Shown: positions 1,545 to 14,747 of the stretch, piece after piece | Position numbering within the stretch: the stretch's first letter is position 1 | Layout: each line of letters starts with the position of its first letter | IMG/VR virus record: IMGVR_UViG_3300048112_000064 | Span: 1-22,783 of that record | DNA: 22,783 nucleotides | Origin: a virus | Direction: 5' to 3' (one strand) | Notes under the pieces: generated by a model | Told to the model about the DNA's origin: nothing | The model's input: only the letters and a program-made list of their open reading frames with translations | Database searches by the model: none | Program-made: the position numbers and the translations under genes

Positions 1545-2596
1545 ACCAGTTCCTCTTCAATCAATGTTTCAGGGTTAATCTCGCTCTTGTATCCTATCTG
1601 ATACGTCTTCTTCAAGAACTCTGCAAAGTCAGTTGACTCAAAAATAGGTTCCCAGAAGTCAGCGGTCATGGTTTCTTTCAATCGCAATTTAGAACCAAGT
1701 ACTTCACCTGTAGTCAAGTCAACACGTTGATACCAACCATTGGATGGTTTGTCGACATACCCACCCGCAAGGGCAACATCAAGAAGACCAGAGTACTTCT
1801 GCACCCCACCTTCCCAAGATACGCCAATCGGAATCTTAGATTGTTCTTTCACGAATCGAGACTTCTCGACTTTAATAACAAAGTCATAACCAACAATTTC
1901 AGTACCCTGCTTCTCTTGACGACGACCGATGATCCAGATGTTGTCGGCAGAGTAATAGATACCAGTACCACCACTCACGATATCTTTTGGAAACAAACCA
2001 ATCTCTTTATAAGTGTGATTGATTGCAAGCATCGGAATGTTCTTCATCGCAAGGTATGGTGTTGACATACGGAACAGACCTTTCAGTGCCTTCGCACGTG
2101 ACATGTCTGCAACACCCTTTTCAGCCAACGCATCTTCTAGTTCTTTCTTAGACGCAAGGTTACCGATAGAGTCAATCACGATAATGACATCGTCGTTGCG
2201 GTCCAACTCTTCTAGTTGGCTGATCAAGTCAAACTTTAACTCTTCGACGTTTGCAATAGGTGTGTGCAATACTCGACTAGTATCAATACCAAATTGTTCA
2301 AAGTAAGACTGTGGCGAACCAAACTCTGAGTCATAGAACAACATGACCGCATCTGGTTTCGCGTTAAGGTATGCACCTGCCATGAGTAAGGCAAATGATG
2401 TCTTAAAGTGTTTCGATGGTCCAGCGAGGACAGTAAGTCCTGGCGAGATACCACCGTCGACTGACCCCGACAACGCAACGTTCACCATCGGAACGTCGGT
2501 CGGAACCATATCTTTTTCAGTGAAGAACTTACTAGTGGAGAGTGTCGCCGTCTCCTTTATCTTCGAGTTCTTCTTCAGTTTGTCCATTATCGACAT
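1541..2596 (-). CDS. uvsX: UvsX, RecA-like strand-exchange recombinase
   Basis: UvsX forms presynaptic filaments on ssDNA and drives strand invasion for recombination-dependent replication, loaded by UvsY. The protein aligns from end to end with T4 UvsX as I remember it: ASKFFNEKD versus TSKFFTEKD, and the SGG...LAGPSK block. Walker A is GPSKHFKT (residues 59-66) and Walker B VIIVIDS (137-143), followed by GNLASKKE. AINHTY and GGTG segments follow around residues 195-215. The start is ATG at 2596, with an ideal GGAGG five bases upstream; an in-frame TTG four codons earlier is less likely. At 351 residues it is shorter than T4 UvsX (about 390) and lacks the long acidic C-terminal tail. The first 65 bases overlap the end of the UDP-glucose dehydrogenase gene. 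A probable promoter lies at 2657-2686. Confidence 0.96.
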   Translation of the reverse strand: MSIMDKLKKNSKIKETATLSTSKFFTEKDMVPTDVPMVNVALSGSVDGGISPGLTVLAGPSKHFKTSFALLMAGAYLNAKPDAVMLFYDSEFGSPQSYFEQFGIDTSRVLHTPIANVEELKFDLISQLEELDRNDDVIIVIDSIGNLASKKELEDALAEKGVADMSRAKALKGLFRMSTPYLAMKNIPMLAINHTYKEIGLFPKDIVSGGTGIYYSADNIWIIGRRQEKQGTEIVGYDFVIKVEKSRFVKEQSKIPIGVSWEGGVQKYSGLLDVALAGGYVDKPSNGWYQRVDLTTGEVLGSKLRLKETMTADFWEPIFESTDFAEFLKKTYQIGYKSEINPETLIEEELV

Positions 2597-3521
2597 TTTT
2601 GCCTCCAAAATCTACAAATGTAATGTTGTTTACTTTTTCACGTTCATCGAGGTCATATTGTACACGATAAGCACTATTGATGTCAAGTACTTTCTCCAAT
2701 AAATCGAAACTAGTTCCAGTTCCGTCCTCAAACTCATGTGTAGAGAAATCCAGAAAAGCACGTGTGTCTTTAGGGAGACATGCACCACCGAATCCACGTT
2801 TACCATCGAAGCCAGGAACACGAGTGTGACCTAGTCCTACACGGTCATCTGCACCCACGGCGCGGACGATAGTGTTGAAGTTACACCCATATAAATTTAC
2901 TAGATCATACAATTGATTAAAGAATGTAATCTTAGTAGATAAGAATGAGTTGATTGAATACTTGACAAAGGATGCCTCGTACGCAGTCATACGATGATAA
3001 TTGTTAGACTCACATGATCCGAAGATTTCATAAATGTCAATAAGGTCTTGACATGCTTCTGGCATACCACCCATGACATGAAACTTCGCAGTAACGAAGT
3101 CTGCCTTTGCATTCTTCTCTGTGAGAAATTCTGGATTATAACAAAATCGATTCACCTGTTCTCTGTTCATCGCAGAGTATAGACGGTCGACAGACTCCGG
3201 AGTGATGGTCGATTTAACAACTACTAGTGCATCGGTATAAACCAGACAGTTAGCAACTGCCGCTTCGACTATAGTAGAGTCAACTGAACCATCGTCATTC
3301 GACGGAGTAGGAGCGCACACGAAGAAACACTGTGGATGATTCTCTCGCGGTATGTGTTGTAAATTTTCAACAGCAGTATCATACTTTGGATCATAGAAAT
3401 TAAAGTCTACGAGAGGATGCGTGAATGCATACTCGACCGCTTGACCTACAAACCCATGACCAACAATTCCAATTCTGAATCGTGATACTTCACCATCAGG
3501 CATTGTTCTATCTTCAGACAT
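2532..3521 (-). CDS. UDP-glucose 6-dehydrogenase-like protein lacking the C-terminal domain
   Basis: UDP-glucose dehydrogenase oxidises UDP-glucose to UDP-glucuronate with two NAD+. Visible features are an N-terminal Rossmann motif GHGFVG (residues 21-26), CAPTP (69-73), VVKSTITP (101-108), NPEFLTEKNA (129-138) with the conserved Glu132, the helix with Lys187 and Asn191, and the catalytic loop GFGGACLPKD (243-252) with Cys248. The usual family length is about 390-450 residues; this one has 329. It stops about 75 residues after the catalytic Cys, so the second nucleotide-binding domain is missing. The last 20 or so residues are acidic and are read through the uvsX start in another frame. The start ATG shares one base with the epimerase stop (TAATG), so the two enzymes are coupled. 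The family is clear; whether the short form is active is uncertain. Confidence 0.88.
   Translation of the reverse strand: MSEDRTMPDGEVSRFRIGIVGHGFVGQAVEYAFTHPLVDFNFYDPKYDTAVENLQHIPRENHPQCFFVCAPTPSNDDGSVDSTIVEAAVANCLVYTDALVVVKSTITPESVDRLYSAMNREQVNRFCYNPEFLTEKNAKADFVTAKFHVMGGMPEACQDLIDIYEIFGSCESNNYHRMTAYEASFVKYSINSFLSTKITFFNQLYDLVNLYGCNFNTIVRAVGADDRVGLGHTRVPGFDGKRGFGGACLPKDTRAFLDFSTHEFEDGTGTSFDLLEKVLDINSAYRVQYDLDEREKVNNITFVDFGGKNVDNGQTEEELEDKGDGDTLH
2657..2686 (-). promoter_or_regulatory. Probable promoter for uvsX
   Basis: The -35 is TTGACA (2686-2681), the spacer 18 bp, and the -10 TACAAT (2662-2657). It has one -10 mismatch and a spacer one base longer than the other promoters in the window. 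It lies in the 3' end of the UDP-glucose dehydrogenase gene and would start about 54 nt before the uvsX ATG, which carries a strong GGAGG site. Confidence 0.5.
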
Positions 3522-4462
3522 TATTCAATCCCATTGTAGTCTTTATACCATTCATAAAACCGTTCAACACCTTCTGCAATACTTACTTTTGGTTCGTATC
3601 CCAGTGCTTCTAACTTGGTGGTATCAGACCAAGTCTCTAGTGTGTCTGCTGGATGTTTTGGAGCAAGATTCTTGATAGCATCTTTCCCCGTATTCTTTTC
3701 AATCTCGCTGATGAAGTCCATCAATGCGACCTGTTCACCACGACCAATGTTAAATATCTCACCTGCCTCGATGTCGGTATTACCTAAAACGATTTCAATA
3801 CCATCTAGGATATCATCCACGTAGGTAAAATCCCGTTTCATATCACCATAATTATACACGGTAATTTCCTTTTCGTCAAGTATGTTCTTGGTAAAATCAA
3901 ACAATGCCATGTCTGGTCGTCCCCAAGGACCATATACTGTAAAGAATCGTAGACCGACTGTGTTCAGACTAGATGACTGCATCTGACATTCGTTGGCCCA
4001 CTTGGTGTAACCATACGCGTTCAACTGCTTGCCATGTTCTTTACCTTCCACCCACGGTACCGGAGAACCAGCATAAACGCAAGATGTTGACGCATAGACA
4101 ATACGAGTGTCTGGAAGATGTGTCTTACACACGTCGATTATGTTCTGAGTTGCGTCGATGTTGTTCTGGTGATAACTCTTCTCTTTACCTAGAGAGTCTC
4201 GCACACCTGCCATTGCAGCAAGGTGAACGATAGTATCTGGTTGAAAGTCTCGAAGTAGTGCCTCGACCTTTAATTCGTCGCGAAGGTCACATCCCCAGAT
4301 ATCAATATCGAAATGAACCATTCGGTCTCTTTTCAGTGATGGGGTGTACAGATGATTATTAAAGTTGTCCAGACCCTTAACCTCTAGACCCTGTCTTTGT
4401 AATCTGTCACATAATTGCGAACCGATAAATCCGGCCGCACCTGTTACTAAAACTTTTTTCAT
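3521..4462 (-). CDS. NAD-dependent UDP-sugar 4-epimerase, UDP-glucuronate epimerase-like
   Basis: This is an extended short-chain dehydrogenase of the GalE/UDP-glucuronate 4-epimerase group. The NAD-binding motif is G8xxG11xxG14 (TGAAGFIGS) at the N-terminus, followed by the LDNFNNHLY segment (31-39) that the glucuronate epimerases share. Ser125/Ser127 (ASTSCVY) and Tyr150...Lys154 form the catalytic set, and LRFFTVYGPWGRPDMA is the substrate-loop signature. Length (313) is normal. With the adjacent dehydrogenase the pair would give UDP-glucose to UDP-glucuronate to UDP-galacturonate, precursors for surface or virion glycans. The ATG at 4462 has AGGA nine bases upstream. A related family such as dTDP- or GDP-sugar epimerase/dehydratase cannot be excluded from motifs alone. 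Confidence 0.88.
   Translation of the reverse strand: MKKVLVTGAAGFIGSQLCDRLQRQGLEVKGLDNFNNHLYTPSLKRDRMVHFDIDIWGCDLRDELKVEALLRDFQPDTIVHLAAMAGVRDSLGKEKSYHQNNIDATQNIIDVCKTHLPDTRIVYASTSCVYAGSPVPWVEGKEHGKQLNAYGYTKWANECQMQSSSLNTVGLRFFTVYGPWGRPDMALFDFTKNILDEKEITVYNYGDMKRDFTYVDDILDGIEIVLGNTDIEAGEIFNIGRGEQVALMDFISEIEKNTGKDAIKNLAPKHPADTLETWSDTTKLEALGYEPKVSIAEGVERFYEWYKDYNGIE
3851..3879 (-). promoter_or_regulatory. Possible intragenic promoter in the epimerase gene
   Basis: The -35 is TTGACG (3879-3874), the spacer 17 bp, and the -10 TATAAT (3856-3851). It has the same geometry and one-base -35 change as the gp46 site. The next start codon (dehydrogenase, 3521) is about 320 nt downstream, a poor distance, so its use is less certain. 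Confidence 0.4.
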
Positions 4463-7946: not shown

Positions 7947-8743
7947 TCAATTACCTTAAAAAATTTGTGTCGAGTCCACGGTTGTTCTTGCTTCTTATCT
8001 GAGTACCCATGATGGTCCTGAGTTACCGCAAGACGTTTTGAAATCACCTGAGTAGTTGGCGTAGGTATCCCAGTGCGATGTCTATCTCTCTGATTAAAGT
8101 ATATCCCGATGTCACGACCAACACCTATTGTATCACATTCAGTCCAAGGATGCAAGGCAGTATTGCGAATTCCGTAATAATTTATATCTGGACGATTTAG
8201 GAAGTCCGTCGTGTAAGTTCTGAAAAGACGCTGGAGAACACAGTAAGGTCCACAGTTGATAGGAAATTCATTGGTGGTCATCATATGATGCGCCCAGTGT
8301 GCGAACCCTCTGTCCATGCAGTACATACCCATGAACAATCCTATATTCGCATAGAGCGTATTATCTGCGTACTCAGCAAGTAGTTTGAATGCTTCGTAAC
8401 GTTCTTCGATCAACCATGTGTCGTGTTCCATAATCCAGAACTTTTCGTCTGACTGTCCTTGCAGACGCATTAGTTCCCAGTGAGAACACATCCCTGCCTT
8501 TTCTGTGGGAGAGTGATCCTCTTTACCGTTACCAGACAATGTGTCTAGAGTCATGAGACTTTTAGACCAGTTATAACTAGACGCATGTTCTTCAAAGTTT
8601 GCAGAGGCCGGGGTAATTGCATCGAAGGTTTCGATAGAATCTATGAAACCCTCGTCGATGGCACGTTGGAAGGAATAACGGGAGAGCGAAGCATACTCTT
8701 CAGACCGTTCATCGCCCTTCATTACAATCTGTATTGCTTTCAT
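7943..8743 (-). CDS. GT25-like glycosyltransferase or related GT-A protein
   Basis: A 266-residue soluble protein. The block [14 protein letters not shown] (residues about 81-94) followed by [12 protein letters not shown] (about 105-116) resembles the GT25 (LPS glycosyltransferase) pattern of a GC..SH helix followed by a strand ending in an acidic E-D-D metal-binding triad. Here the triad reads E-H-D, a change at the expected DxD-type position. The N-terminus [17 protein letters not shown], with [10 protein letters not shown], fits the start of a GT-A fold. The ATG overlaps the upstream dioxygenase stop by 4 nt (ATGA), so the two are translationally coupled. Its stop lies within the -35 of the gp43 promoter. 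A role in glycosylating a phage or host surface molecule is inferred. It could also be an inactive relative. Confidence 0.55.
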
Positions 8744-9330
8744 CGTGTAAACGGTTCTCTATAAAACCCATCTAAACTTATGGGTTTGTCTGCATACACA
8801 CAAGCGTATAGGCCTCTTGCATGTGGACTTTTGTTTGGGTAACTGCGATGCATAGTGTTTCCGTTAATCACTAATACATCACCTCTTTTCAAAACAGGTG
8901 TGGACCATTTCCTGTTATCAATATTCTGTACTTCTAATGACCCGTTCGTTGCTGTTATGTCGTCTAGTATCCATGCAACGTTTATAGTATGAATACCAGA
9001 ATTTTTATTAGGACCATACTGATTATCATAATGTGCTGGGAACTCTAAACTATCTCTAGGCATTTTCATAACCATTTGATCGTTGAACAAGTATACCACA
9101 TCACCCAGTATCTGTCTAGTCAAATCATACATGACCTCTGAGGTATAAATGTTGAATAGCTCCTCACTGAATTTACCAGCACAGGATATACCTTTCCAGT
9201 CCGAATACTTAGGATAGTCCTTGCGGAGTTCAATACCGATCTTCTTGACCTTACTTATAATGTCATCATCTATCAAAGAAGGTAAATGCATCCACCCCTT
9301 TGCCTCGTAATGTTCTATATCGTAGTTCAA
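8740..9330 (-). CDS. PhyH-type Fe(II)/2-oxoglutarate dioxygenase
   Basis: A 196-residue enzyme with the double-stranded beta-helix signature of phytanoyl-CoA dioxygenase relatives. The metal ligands are His100 and Asp102 (FPAHYDNQYG) and His161 (NTMHRSYPN), and Arg172 (HARG) would bind 2-oxoglutarate. WILDDITATNGSLEV (120-134) is the conserved strand-turn before the distal His. The start is probably TTG at 9330, because AAGGA lies six bases upstream and no ATG follows until residue 14. An intrinsic terminator lies immediately upstream (9349-9374) and no promoter is visible between, so expression depends on read-through or an unrecognised start. It is coupled to the glycosyltransferase-like gene downstream. 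Substrate unknown; hydroxylation of a small molecule or sugar is possible. Confidence 0.8.
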   Translation of the reverse strand: MNYDIEHYEAKGWMHLPSLIDDDIISKVKKIGIELRKDYPKYSDWKGISCAGKFSEELFNIYTSEVMYDLTRQILGDVVYLFNDQMVMKMPRDSLEFPAHYDNQYGPNKNSGIHTINVAWILDDITATNGSLEVQNIDNRKWSTPVLKRGDVLVINGNTMHRSYPNKSPHARGLYACVYADKPISLDGFYREPFTR

Positions 9331-10315: not shown

Positions 10316-10858
10316 TTAATAGTACATTGATGGGTCCGGAATTCCTTCTATTCCAAATGAAAAAGATACACGAGATTCTCTAGGGAATACTTGATGATGA
10401 GTTTGTCTTGGTAAATAAACATACATACCAGGCTCAAAATCAAATTGCTCTTCGTTATTAATGCCTTCTACCTTTAGACCGACAGTACTTATAACCTGAA
10501 CTAAGAACACGTCCATAGCATCTTTGTGCCAAGGGTATGACCCACTTGCACGACCAAAACCACTAAACGCAATGTTAGTGATTTTGTTTTCATGCAGCGT
10601 GAACACATCCTGTAGTTCTGTATATATGTTCTTCGCAAACTCTGGTGAACTACCACGAGTATGGAAGTTGTTCAAACCTATACGCATCTTATCTGAATTT
10701 CTGTCGTATAGGTCATTTGGATGCGAGTCCATCATTTGCATGAACTCGTTCCAATTGTAAGTCTCTTTCATATCAAACGGAAGTTTGCCTACGAACGGAG
10801 TCTTGGTGCGAATATTCTCTTCGCGATCTTCAAATATATCATAACAAGTATTTGACAT
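10316..10858 (-). CDS. 2OG-Fe(II) oxygenase-like cupin-fold protein
   Basis: A 180-residue protein with a plausible full set of Fe(II)/2-oxoglutarate residues: His111 and Asp113 in YPWHKDAMD, a distal His154 or His155 in RQTHHQVFPRESR, and Arg163 as the 2-oxoglutarate anchor, with VSFSFGIEG as the closing strand. GMYVYLPRQTHHQV is the turn typical of JmjC/cupin-type oxygenases. The start codon shares one base with the regA stop (TGATG), so translation is coupled to RegA. Substrate unknown. Protein or nucleotide hydroxylation are both possible. It is not closely related by motif to the PhyH protein at 8740-9330 or the 21480-22124 protein. Confidence 0.68.
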   Translation of the reverse strand: MSNTCYDIFEDREENIRTKTPFVGKLPFDMKETYNWNEFMQMMDSHPNDLYDRNSDKMRIGLNNFHTRGSSPEFAKNIYTELQDVFTLHENKITNIAFSGFGRASGSYPWHKDAMDVFLVQVISTVGLKVEGINNEEQFDFEPGMYVYLPRQTHHQVFPRESRVSFSFGIEGIPDPSMYY

Positions 10859-11254: not shown

Positions 11255-11635
11255 TTATTCTCTTCCACCTTTGGCAACCTTATTTTTAATTGTTTTTATT
11301 TGTGATTCCGTCAAGAGCCCTACAACTTGTTTCGCCTTCTGTTCACTGTAACCAAAATACTCTTTGATACATTCCATGTCAGCTCTTTGCTCAGGTTTAT
11401 CCCATTTAGAGAATCGCTTCTTCTTCCTTACAATATTTATAAGAAAGTCGTACTGCATTTTATCATCTAAGTGATGCAGTCTATTCATTTCGTTAGACAA
11501 AAGTATAGTGTCTGGGAAATAAGATAGAGATCTATTCACGACAAATCCATTATAGTACTTGGCATTGTCTGCATCATTATCTATCAAATTTACTTTAGTG
11601 TCATTTATACTTTTCAGAAAGTCAAATGGACTCAT
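11255..11635 (-). CDS. 62: Clamp loader small subunit, gp62-like
   Basis: gp62 forms the clamp loader with four gp44 subunits and opens sliding clamp gp45. At 126 residues it is far shorter than T4 gp62 (187). The central block is recognisable: VNRSLSYFPDTILLSNEMNRLH, then LQYDFLIN-like sequence and RKKKRFSKWDKP, equivalent to T4 YSKFMVENALSQFPE and RGKRYGKWAK. The C-terminus (YFGYSEQKAKQVVGLL) is helical. Its ATG overlaps the gp44 TGA by 4 bases (ATGA), which couples translation and fixes the subunit ratio. Identification rests on this block plus position between gp44 and regA. Confidence 0.88.
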   Translation of the reverse strand: MSPFDFLKSINDTKVNLIDNDADNAKYYNGFVVNRSLSYFPDTILLSNEMNRLHHLDDKMQYDFLINIVRKKKRFSKWDKPEQRADMECIKEYFGYSEQKAKQVVGLLTESQIKTIKNKVAKGGRE

Positions 11636-12576
11636 GGTTTAATATCCACGTTCGCCATAACTTCGGTCATACATGCGACAAGATTCAGTTCGTGGTCAGC
11701 AACAAACGCATTCTTGTATTGGTAATCCGCAAGGATAAGAACCAACTGAGGAATACTGTTTGGTGCGACGTGGTCATACATTTTATCGTAGACACCACGG
11801 AAGATTGACGCCGGTTCAACATCTATATTGTTGACTACCCACGATCTCATCTTCTTAAAGTTCTTCTCACGGATTGCGCTGAATAACTGTGTATAAGTGT
11901 CAGAGATATCCGCACTCACACTATTGGGGACATTGAGAGTACCAGACATAGAGCCTTTCTGACTCTCATTCAGCACACGTCTCCAATCTGGAGCATGTTT
12001 CATGATGACGTTTGCCACCACATTGTTATCGAACTCCACTCCTTCTCCTTGCAAGATTCCTTGGAGTCGCTGCATGAACCCACCACATAGCGAGGTCATA
12101 GTTTTCTTATCGAAATTGAAGGCGTATTTAGAACACCTTGAGTGTAGAGGTTCGATGATGCGATTCTCAAAATTACATGTCATAATGAAACGACAGTTAT
12201 TCGAGAACTCTTCGATGAACCCACGGAGAGCAGGTTGCGTCGATTGGGGATTTAGGTAATCTGCCTCATCTAGGATGACAACCTTGTAACCACCGGACAA
12301 AGACACGGACGATGCGAACTGTTTAATCTTGCCGCGCAAGGTGTCGATGTTACCTTCTTCCGACCCGTTGATGACGATATAGTCTAGGTCTAATTCCTCA
12401 CAGATGGCACGTGCCACCGTGGTCTTACCAGTACCGGCAGTGCCGGTGAACATCATGTTGAGGATTTCACCACCATCCACAATGTTCTGAAATGTTTGTT
12501 TTAGATCATCCGGAAGGATAGTTTCAGAAACTTTCTTCGGACGGTATTTCTCGACCCACAAAAACTCATTACTCAT
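11632..12576 (-). CDS. 44: Clamp loader large subunit, gp44-like AAA+ ATPase
   Basis: An AAA+ ATPase that loads gp45 onto primer-template junctions. The N-terminus LWVEKYRPKKVSETILP is the RFC/clamp-loader signature. Walker A is GTAGTGKT (45-52), Walker B VVILDEAD (99-106), sensor 1 lies around TCNFENR (133-139), and the SRC arginine-finger motif at 146-148. The start is ATG at 12576 with GGAG upstream; a TTG 10 codons earlier is in frame but has no support. Length is 314 (T4 319). It is the first gene of a unit gp44-gp62-regA-oxygenase-hypothetical driven by the promoter at 12615-12643. Confidence 0.96.
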   Translation of the reverse strand: MSNEFLWVEKYRPKKVSETILPDDLKQTFQNIVDGGEILNMMFTGTAGTGKTTVARAICEELDLDYIVINGSEEGNIDTLRGKIKQFASSVSLSGGYKVVILDEADYLNPQSTQPALRGFIEEFSNNCRFIMTCNFENRIIEPLHSRCSKYAFNFDKKTMTSLCGGFMQRLQGILQGEGVEFDNNVVANVIMKHAPDWRRVLNESQKGSMSGTLNVPNSVSADISDTYTQLFSAIREKNFKKMRSWVVNNIDVEPASIFRGVYDKMYDHVAPNSIPQLVLILADYQYKNAFVADHELNLVACMTEVMANVDIKP

Positions 12577-12614
12577 TACAGCTCCATAATATAAATTAAC
12601 TTTCAATAGGGGAT

Positions 12615-12643
12615 ATTATACTACAAAACCCCCTTCATGTAAA
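12615..12643 (-). promoter_or_regulatory. Promoter for the gp44-gp62-regA unit
   Basis: The -35 is TTTACA (12643-12638), the spacer 17 bp, and the -10 TATAAT (12620-12615). Start near 12608 gives a leader of about 32 nt that carries GGAG before the gp44 ATG. The bases before the -10 (TTTTGTAG) are the same as in the gp47 promoter. Confidence 0.78.
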
Positions 12644-12657
12644 CCATCTGTAAACAA

Positions 12658-13257
12658 TTATTTATAATTATCTTCAGTTTCATCAGCATAGTTATGGTTA
12701 ACTTTTGCGTGATGTTGTTCATCTTTTCGCACACATTTTATCATGTCAGACAAGAGTGCATCTTCCGACATTGCATAATATTCTATTGCTATCTTAGGGG
12801 CCGGGATGTCCTCTATTTCCCCCAATTGAATCAACGCTAAATAATTGGTATAACTACGTACGGCCTCGTCCTCAAAGTACCCCACCATGCGATGAGCGGT
12901 CTTAGGGAATAAGATGTATAACACTAGGTAGTAGTGCCAGAACACGAACTGTGCGATGATGATAATTATACGTTCTACCATAGAAGGCTGGACCACTTCC
13001 ATGAAGAACATTAGGTGTTTTCTTTCGTTCTCTGCTTCAGCGAGTAACTCGTGTATCTTAGTACCGTTACCAGACTGAAGTCTTCGCAGACTTTTCAGGT
13101 GAGTCAACATACCACCCACCATGCCTGGTACCCCTGCTACTGTTTCTAAAACAAGTGCACGATGTCCATAACGATTACCAAAAAAGGTATCCGCAAAGAA
13201 CCTAAAGAATGCAGTCATTGACCGCGCTACAAAATCAGATATTTTTTGGTGTGTCAT
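12658..13257 (-). CDS. aox: Alternative oxidase (di-iron ubiquinol oxidase)
   Basis: AOX moves electrons from ubiquinol to oxygen without pumping protons, as a monotopic protein on the inner membrane. The di-iron ligands are all present: Glu38 (VLETVAG), Glu78 and His81 (ENERKH), a Glu in FEDEAVRSY (129-131), and Glu180 and His183 (RKDEQHH). Hydrophobic helices lie around 82-92 and 97-117. RYGHRALVLETVAGVPGMVGGMLTHL is the bacterial/mitochondrial AOX pattern rather than the PTOX pattern of cyanophages. Length is 199 residues, compact but complete. The start ATG at 13257 is preferred over a TTG five codons earlier. A late-promoter-like motif lies at 13284-13291. The gene sits between clamp and clamp-loader genes and is clearly an auxiliary metabolic gene. 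Confidence 0.92.
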   Translation of the reverse strand: MTHQKISDFVARSMTAFFRFFADTFFGNRYGHRALVLETVAGVPGMVGGMLTHLKSLRRLQSGNGTKIHELLAEAENERKHLMFFMEVVQPSMVERIIIIIAQFVFWHYYLVLYILFPKTAHRMVGYFEDEAVRSYTNYLALIQLGEIEDIPAPKIAIEYYAMSEDALLSDMIKCVRKDEQHHAKVNHNYADETEDNYK

Positions 13258-13356
13258 TCCTAGTTCCAACAAGCTTGGACTTGTATTTATTACTAAAAGA
13301 ACATAAAACAGTATGACTTTTTTCTATGATAAAGATTATGTGTGTTCATATGTAAG
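13258..13356. other. Intergenic region between tRNA-Thr and the oxidase
   Basis: About 100 AT-rich bases. It contains a late-promoter-like motif (13284-13291) and an imperfect inverted repeat around the HindIII-like palindrome CAAGCTTG (near 13270). No open frame worth naming. Confidence 0.5.
13284..13291 (-). promoter_or_regulatory. Possible late promoter for the alternative oxidase
   Basis: The motif AATAAATA on the minus strand matches the T4 late consensus TATAAATA at 7 of 8 bases. It lies 26 bases before the oxidase ATG, close to the 22-base distance at the structural gene (22608-22615). The region is AT-rich, so a chance match is possible. Confidence 0.35.
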
Positions 13357-13432
13357 TGGAGCTCGGAACAGGAGTCGAACCTGCGACCTGCTGATTACAA
13401 GTCAGCTGCTCTACCAACTGAGCTATCCGAGC
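13357..13432 (-). tRNA. tRNA-Thr (anticodon UGU)
   Basis: A 76-nt cloverleaf. The acceptor stem GCTCGGA (13432-13426) pairs with TCCGAGC (13367-13361), followed by discriminator T and an encoded CCA (13359-13357). The D arm has AGTTGGTAGA; the anticodon stem-loop is GCTGA-CTTGTAA-TCAGC with anticodon TGT (13399-13397); the T loop is GTTCGACTC. It reads ACA and, by wobble, other Thr codons. The 5' end overlaps the stop codon of the upstream membrane protein gene by 10 bases. Confidence 0.97.
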
Positions 13433-13665
13433 GTGTTCTTACGTTTCTTACGCTTTTCTGTAAGGGTACGTACTATGTATATGCGTGTGAACGCAATAAC
13501 TGAAATACCAGCGGTTAAAGTTGTAGATAAAAATACCGGATCAGTATTTTTCCATTGAACAATAACCAACCAAGTGAAGAATATGTTAAGAGGATAGTTT
13601 ATAAGAGTGCCCAAAGACACATGTATTAGCGTTTCTCTCGCTATCTCTTTGTCATAATACTTCAT
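13423..13665 (-). CDS. Small two-helix membrane protein
   Basis: An 80-residue protein with two hydrophobic segments (about 14-38 and 43-62) and a strongly basic C-terminus (RTLTEKRKKRKN). This is a helical hairpin with both ends probably cytoplasmic. The N-terminus MKYYDKEIARETLIHVSLGTLINYPLNIF, with ETLIH...G..INYP, and the later ISVIAFTRIYIVR resemble a small phage membrane family I recall but cannot name. Its TAG stop (13425-13423) lies inside the tRNA-Thr gene. A start at ATG 13665 is used, without a strong ribosome-binding site. It lies just downstream of the inverted repeat at 13675-13763. Confidence 0.65.
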   Translation of the reverse strand: MKYYDKEIARETLIHVSLGTLINYPLNIFFTWLVIVQWKNTDPVFLSTTLTAGISVIAFTRIYIVRTLTEKRKKRKNTLG

Positions 13666-13770: not shown

Positions 13771-14010
13771 TTACTTCTTAGACGCTTTCGACTTAGAAGT
13801 TTGTGCTTCCTTTGCGGACTCTTCAGCGAATGCCTTTGCGACATTCTCATATAGAGCAACAACACTGACTGCTTGGTCACGTAATTGACCGATAGTAGTG
13901 AGTTCTTCACCTTTGAACCCGCCACGAGTGACGACGGTATCTACTACCGCAACACATGAACGTGCAACACGATTCGCTAGGTCATTTAAATTCTTCTGAT
14001 CTTCAGTCAT
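13771..14010 (-). CDS. Conserved hypothetical protein downstream of the sliding clamp
   Basis: A 79-residue helical protein of unknown function. The start is ATG at 14010, which overlaps the gp45 end by 8 bases and has GGAG six bases upstream; a longer frame reaching 14124 would run through gp45 coding and is not supported. The sequence begins MTEDQKNLNDLANRVARS and ends in a Ser/Lys/Ala-rich basic tail (TSKSKASKK). In T4 the gene after 45 is rpbA, an RNA polymerase-binding protein. I see no sequence resemblance I could defend, so that is only a positional thought. Confidence 0.75.
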   Translation of the reverse strand: MTEDQKNLNDLANRVARSCVAVVDTVVTRGGFKGEELTTIGQLRDQAVSVVALYENVAKAFAEESAKEAQTSKSKASKK

Positions 14011-14689
14011 TTTTTGCTCCGTAAGTAGATGACTTTTCAAGTGCAATAAAGTATTGCGTTTCTGAAGTGATTGATTTGAAGTGAGAAATAAACTTCGTAG
14101 ATGCAGATACTTCGTAGTCTTCACCCAACAACTTCATGTTAGATACTCCCATAATAAAGTTAAAGTCAGCACCTTCGGGGAAACTGCCCTCAACCAATAC
14201 AGAGAATGAGTTAGACGTGGAATCGTTTGTGTCGACTACTGTGATTTCAATCGAGTTTCCGTTTGGACGGATAGAGATATTATCGTAACCGAGCGCAGAT
14301 GATGCACGTTTGATCTTACTTAGGGTTTCATTAGTAAGCAAGAATTTGACTTCACACTCAGGCATGACGATATCTTTCTTAGGTGCAGAGAGCATCTCAG
14401 GGTCAGAGTAGAAGTATTTCACCGATGATAAACCACTGCCGTCAGATACGGTACAGAAGCTTTCACCGAAAGTAATTGATGGACGATCCACCAAAGACAA
14501 CACAGACAAGAACTCAGAGAGATCATAGATGCCGAACGTATTCGGAAAACTCTCATCGATCTCAGCACGAGAAACGATGTTCTTTGCAATAGACATAGTC
14601 TTCAAGACGTTACCGCCATTGACTACGATATTTGGATTGATAGTCGAGAAGTTACGCAGTATCTCGACCGTGCGACTAGATAGTTCCAT
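14003..14689 (-). CDS. 45: Sliding clamp, gp45-like
   Basis: The trimeric ring that holds gp43 on DNA and also activates late transcription with gp55. At 228 residues it equals the T4 length. The start MELSSRTVEILRNFSTINPNIVV and the phrase FGIYDLSEFLSVLSLVDRPSI correspond to T4 gp45 (LYDLNGFLGILSLV). Identity rests on these blocks and on the position between gp44/gp62 and gp46/gp47. The ATG at 14689 has GAGGAAAG upstream within a roughly 24-nt leader from the promoter at 14719-14747. It is followed by an overlapping small hypothetical gene. Confidence 0.93.
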   Translation of the reverse strand: MELSSRTVEILRNFSTINPNIVVNGGNVLKTMSIAKNIVSRAEIDESFPNTFGIYDLSEFLSVLSLVDRPSITFGESFCTVSDGSGLSSVKYFYSDPEMLSAPKKDIVMPECEVKFLLTNETLSKIKRASSALGYDNISIRPNGNSIEITVVDTNDSTSNSFSVLVEGSFPEGADFNFIMGVSNMKLLGEDYEVSASTKFISHFKSITSETQYFIALEKSSTYGAKND

Positions 14690-14718: not shown

Positions 14719-14747
14719 ATTATATAACATTTGTGACCGTCTGTCAA
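14719..14747 (-). promoter_or_regulatory. Perfect sigma-70 promoter for gp45
   Basis: The -35 is TTGACA (14747-14742), the spacer 17 bp, and the -10 TATAAT (14724-14719). Start near 14712 gives a leader of about 23 nt containing GAGGAAAG. The -35 overlaps the end of the gp46 gene. Confidence 0.85.

Follow-up and report, generated by a model that had tools for sequence, protein, structure and literature searches.

Here we report that a T4-like phage carries, within its DNA replication cluster, a gene for an alternative oxidase (AOX) that belongs to a virus-specific family. Judged from its sequence and a structural model, the gene product is probably a functional ubiquinol:oxygen oxidoreductase, monotopic and with a di-iron centre; its catalysis, quinone specificity and localisation are predictions. 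We consider it likely that the product is an accessory, early-expressed, non-pumping ubiquinol oxidase that keeps the quinone pool oxidised while phage DNA is replicated. The gene, its active site and fold, the selection acting on it, its phylogenetic unity, its genomic slot and its promoter sequences can be read from sequence and model, and it is activity, host and role that we infer. The window, the whole stretch of DNA analysed, is a 22.8-kb virus record (22,783 nucleotides) in which Pfam and PHROG matches to gp43, regA, gp44, gp45, gp46, gp47, gp55, UvsX and UvsW bear out the T4-like replication cluster that an earlier note had recognised around AOX. The gene is placed as follows:

12658..13257, minus strand: AOX coding sequence, 199 aa, ATG at 13257, stop codon at 12660-12658

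The plus-strand reading of 12658-13257 is interrupted by stop codons. The Pfam AOX profile (PF01786) matches the 199-aa protein over profile positions 16-216 of 216 (E=3.1e-70; 236.6 bits, against a curated cut-off of 22.7 bits). The complete di-iron ligand set claimed by the earlier note for these 199 residues was confirmed as E38, E78, H81, E129, E180 and H183 (6/6), which map to E123, E162, H165, E213, E266 and H269 of the Trypanosoma brucei enzyme (TbAOX). Also kept are the catalytic tyrosine (Y136, Y220 of TbAOX) and the quinol-pocket residues R19, D23, R33, L37, E131 and H122, the counterparts, in the same order, of R96, D100, R118, L122, E215 and H206. Among proteins of solved structure, T. 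brucei alternative oxidases come closest in sequence, and an AlphaFold model of the protein (pLDDT 88, pTM 0.85) shares the helical bundle fold of TbAOX when compared with Foldseek (TM 0.88, rmsd 1.7 Å). Structure searching of the viral structure library BFVD gave three good matches at 17-22% identity, the only named one being a cyanophage plastoquinol terminal oxidase. The median NG86 dN/dS across 98 pairs of phage AOX genes was 0.07; the gene is under purifying selection, which excludes a chance ORF and, together with the intact ligands, gene decay.

The family extends well beyond this phage. Scanning viral contigs recovered 85 relatives, and an alignment-based scan found relatives encoded in at least 519 IMG/VR stretches, a widespread family that has been hidden as "hypothetical protein" or by its absence from PHROGs; neither PHROGs nor BFVD contained a member. 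Every ligand is kept in 55 distinct phage proteins, and the ligands, the Tyr220 equivalent and the quinol residues are kept in 80-81 of 81 phage representatives. AOX-bearing contigs reach 340 kb, and virus-type AOX is present in two of jumbo-phage size, L288 (340 kb) and L289 (217 kb), where a single neighbouring protein was compared with PHROGs and had no match. The single GenBank phage with a family member is C48C1 (OQ984149), in which the same gene occupies the same slot and encodes a protein (WJE87901.1) 77% identical to the window AOX, annotated as "hypothetical protein" with its start codon set a few codons downstream. A bacterial AOX query in viral contigs returned only members of the phage family, and thus no second viral acquisition as far as checked. 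The family was undescribed in the freely accessible journal papers searched.

An insertion of one residue near window residues 63-71 is common to all 81 representatives, as are Phe at window position 84 and Tyr (window 161) in place of Trp247 (T. brucei numbering). Trp206 of SgAOX (Trp151 of TbAOX) is missing from all 81, and also from 3 of the 41 bacterial AOX sampled. This loss marks an unusual enzyme, since the residue is highly conserved and had been regarded as essential: respiration fell by 95% in the SgAOX W206A mutant, as cited in PMC9540462. Since microsporidian AOX lacking this tryptophan are active (PMC2820529), function is not ruled out by its loss, and from their sequences the phage enzymes seem to work without it. 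The changes at both tryptophans, with the insertion and Phe84, could instead signal a shift to another di-iron reaction such as COQ7-like hydroxylation of a quinone precursor. We regard such a shift as quite improbable, given that the quinol and ligand residues specific to AOX are all retained, that COQ7 structures superpose on the model far less well (TM ~0.4) and that the microsporidian enzymes offer a precedent for activity.

Phylogenetic analysis separated the phage from the bacterial proteins by a single branch with support 100/100, both in a tree built from 56 phage and 40 bacterial sequences and in a larger one with 81 and 41, respectively. The bacterial sampling covered two proteobacterial classes, with four named MAGs belonging to them; a single eukaryotic AOX was included, and the trees were read as unrooted. 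In neither tree was a phage AOX nested among the 40-41 sampled proteobacterial sequences, and by sequence the phage proteins are a separate virus-only clade on the AOX side. The earlier note's description of the protein as bacterial AOX therefore stands as far as the side of the tree is concerned, but its predicted grouping with proteobacterial AOX was not obtained, and identity to the best sampled bacterial AOX is about 51-61%. Recent transfer from a sampled bacterium was rejected for want of a close cellular relative, the best being ~55% among genome-contig pattern matches and ~61% at most. Proteobacterial and mitochondrial AOX (PF01786) have in common with the phage proteins the six di-iron ligands, catalytic tyrosine, quinol-pocket residues and helical fold; the phage AOX differs from them in being virus-encoded, in its 100/100 separation, and in the insertion and tryptophan changes described above.

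Cyanophages carry photosynthetic electron-transport genes, including one for the plastid terminal oxidase (PTOX). Like the protein described here, cyanophage PTOX (for example in Syn9, S-SM2 and P-HM1) belongs to this superfamily of di-iron quinol oxidases, is encoded by phages and has a proposed auxiliary metabolic role; it differs in its quinol-site residues and in belonging to phages of photosynthetic hosts with psbA/psbD. It is known from PMC3037559 and PMC7472177 and is located in other cassettes (PMC3037559). That the window protein is itself a PTOX, or derives from a cyanophage relative, might be suggested by the phage background: the T4-like gp43 is closest to that of C48C1, which is filed under Kyanoviridae, and next to those of cyanophages at ~46%. 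This origin is refuted, and we give it practically no credence. Identity to cyanophage PTOX is ~20%, PTOX stands apart in the tree with support 100, and it carries His where AOX has Glu215 and Tyr in place of His206, so that the earlier note was right to set the protein apart from PTOX. In a first tree PTOX, on a long branch, placed the root within the phage clade; this rooting was not believed because of a warning of long-branch joining. The psbA/psbD family (PF00124) was missing from 21 AOX-bearing viral records, comprising C48C1 (156 kb), a 160-kb contig and 19 others, several of them fragments; as a control, it was found twice in each of 5/5 cyanophages.

Against a cyanophage origin, the next-closest gp44 after that of C48C1 belongs to a phage of OM43 methylotrophs, Methylophilales phage Melnitz (MZ577097), which is the nearest cultured relative with a named host both by gp44 and by the nrdA of an AOX-bearing contig (L251); it has no AOX, and only 22 bp separate its gp45 and gp44. 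Given this kinship and the absence of psbA/psbD, the host is likely a ubiquinone-using marine proteobacterium, the organism being deduced from phage relatives. The phage probably infects a non-photosynthetic marine bacterium, and a heterotrophic host, as the earlier note supposed, is plausible. Virus-encoded oxidases of AOX/PTOX type also occur in prasinoviruses, where a published tree puts sequences from Micromonas viruses nearest Micromonas (PMC12584671); these are viruses of eukaryotic algae and are set apart here by description.

The position of AOX in the replication cluster is an exchange slot, defined by the following features:

11632..12606, minus strand: gp44 clamp loader, the right border gene of the slot (phrog_168, 4e-112)
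12683..13353 (approximate), minus strand: cargo segment present here and not in close relatives, with flanks that align with the AOX-less contigs L324, L326, L331 and L338
13357..13432, minus strand: tRNA-Thr (TGT), the left border of the slot (ARAGORN)
13423..13665, minus strand: conserved protein of 80 aa, predicted to lie in the membrane from its two hydrophobic stretches, without a family
13771..14124, minus strand: small conserved protein, function not known
14003..14689, minus strand: gp45 sliding clamp (phrog_223, 1.5e-68)

Most T4-like relatives have the order gp45, small ORFs, tRNA-Thr, AOX and gp44. Among 80 relatives with a gp44 ~80% identical or more, AOX is present in 47 and absent from 25 (counted as loci with gp45 visible upstream), and 8 are cut. 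Homology to the AOX-less phages ends at ~13354 and restarts at ~12682, inside the last AOX codons. The tRNA-Thr, which adjoins AOX in most syntenic loci, is identical or nearly so in these relatives, and in kin with a gp44 96% identical the 188-204 bp from the tRNA start to gp44 contain no gene. In L341 the slot holds a Pfam-confirmed S-adenosylmethionine synthetase gene (MetK; 2829-3905). A MetK-like gene, by reading, is seen in L351, L352, L383 and kin, and in L356 the slot has an ORF of 223 aa for a putative glycosyltransferase, likewise by reading. Because the same slot is filled by AOX, by MetK or by another gene, or is empty, AOX is exchangeable accessory cargo and not a core gene. In terms of the criteria for viral AMGs, it is flanked by T4 core genes, has bacterial homologues and is absent from close kin. 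The last AOX codons (12658-12682) are homologous to the gp44 leader of AOX-less phages, and the C-terminal tail (about EDNYK) and stop codon thus seem to have been recruited from intergenic DNA. The 80-aa protein adjoining the tRNA had no match in further libraries searched; it is kept in most kin with and without AOX and is thus not necessarily an AOX partner.

Timing of expression was assessed from four candidate elements:

12615..12643, minus strand: sigma-70 promoter TTTACA-17-TATAAT (11/12) of gp44
12659..12666, minus strand: exact T4-type late motif TATAAATA, in the conserved gp44 leader and overlapping the AOX stop codon
13284..13291, minus strand: 7/8 late-like motif AATAAATA, found only in the nearest kin of the window
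14719..14747, minus strand: sigma-70 promoter TTGACA-17-TATAAT (12/12) before gp45, the probable early promoter for gp45 through AOX

A perfect TTGACA-17/18-TATAAT lies ahead of gp45 in 20 of 21 syntenic loci, and the gp44 promoter matches at 10-11/12 in all 21; immediately before AOX the best sigma-70 matches are 6-9/12, as in background. Early transcription of AOX together with gp45 is the best reading of these promoter sequences. The earlier note had proposed use late in infection from a 7/8 motif upstream. That motif exists at 13291-13284, but its reading as a promoter did not hold: a late motif of at least 7/8 within 80 nt was found at 10 of 81 loci, these being near-copies, against 6.4% of random 80-mers, in a scan whose start codons (ATG) sometimes lie a few codons downstream. 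In most syntenic loci the AOX start appears to be a GTG lying a few codons further upstream, preceded by GGAG and beside tRNA-Thr. The exact motif at 12666-12659 belongs to the gp44 leader, because AOX-less phages carry it at the same place. Late genes of C48C1 do have the motif: TATAAATA occurs 22 times on its coding strand against 3.8 expected, and before several structural genes where checked, but it was not found before the C48C1 AOX. We therefore rejected a late promoter for AOX as chance or as gp44's own.

On the reading that we favour, host RNA polymerase would transcribe AOX early, from the promoter before gp45 and alongside the DNA replication genes. Attached to the host membrane on its cytoplasmic side, the enzyme would reduce O2 with electrons taken from ubiquinol and pump no protons, so that the quinone pool would stay oxidised. 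This could let the dehydrogenases that deliver electrons to quinone (those acting on NADH, succinate and, in pyrimidine synthesis, dihydroorotate) continue to work despite proton back-pressure, and would limit electron back-up and reactive oxygen species (ROS) during phage remodelling of the cell and its demand for nucleotides. In many proteobacteria dihydroorotate dehydrogenase passes electrons to quinone. The same AOX clade is found between nrdA and nrdB in L251 and, by seed matches, in L253, L254, L275 and L286, and near nrdA/nrdB in about a dozen further representatives; in L067-type phages AOX is followed directly by peroxiredoxin, and thyX is also present, and in some phages AOX lies beside DUF6267/cytidyltransferase genes. 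At least 7 changes of context are required when these neighbourhoods are mapped on the tree. The nucleotide-gene association may have been counted several times along one lineage. With nrdAB, thyX and replication genes as neighbours, AOX may be linked to nucleotide supply.

AOX enzymes are well known to control ROS, and the peroxiredoxin gene next to AOX in some phages hints instead at an antioxidant role; both roles could apply. AOX might thus be mainly an overflow valve, draining an over-reduced quinone pool as takeover slows the cytochrome chain and protecting cell and phage DNA from ROS, with nucleotide supply incidental. Peroxiredoxin is near AOX in 6 of 81 representatives, and is encoded elsewhere in the C48C1 genome, but most AOX contexts are replication and nucleotide genes and not redox genes; we hold this account to be possible, if rather less probable than not. 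Far less probable is energy uncoupling, in which AOX would rival the proton-pumping oxidases, lower the membrane potential and hinder host functions or superinfecting phages. An early promoter and non-pumping chemistry would fit, but phage replication requires ATP and comparative support is lacking. Known AOX enzymes have low quinol affinity, which would make AOX a poor competitor unless the pool is reduced.

Taking AOX as an early quinol oxidase, we tentatively suggest, at somewhat short of even confidence, that marine phage groups without photosystem genes share a virus-specific, exchangeable AOX with which they redirect host respiration as infection begins, freeing quinone-linked steps from proton back-pressure, pyrimidine synthesis through dihydroorotate dehydrogenase included. 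With a terminal respiratory oxidase in such phages, the electron flow under phage control would come to include respiration, and, if this is true, virus AOX would be a general respiratory counterpart of the cyanophage photosystem genes. Natural pairs of slots with and without AOX make its effect directly testable.

Other metabolic genes were observed in the window and in related contigs. UDP-glucose dehydrogenase-like and NAD-dependent epimerase genes lie between primase and UvsX (2532-4462), as in C48C1, and a PhyH-type dioxygenase (8740-9330) and a JmjC_2-like protein (10316-10858), both probable Fe/2-oxoglutarate enzymes, are encoded near gp43/regA. A ferrochelatase-like gene, seen in 6 representatives, lies between nrdA and nrdB of a 146-kb contig (L223:2516-3523), ~2.5-3.5 kb upstream of AOX.
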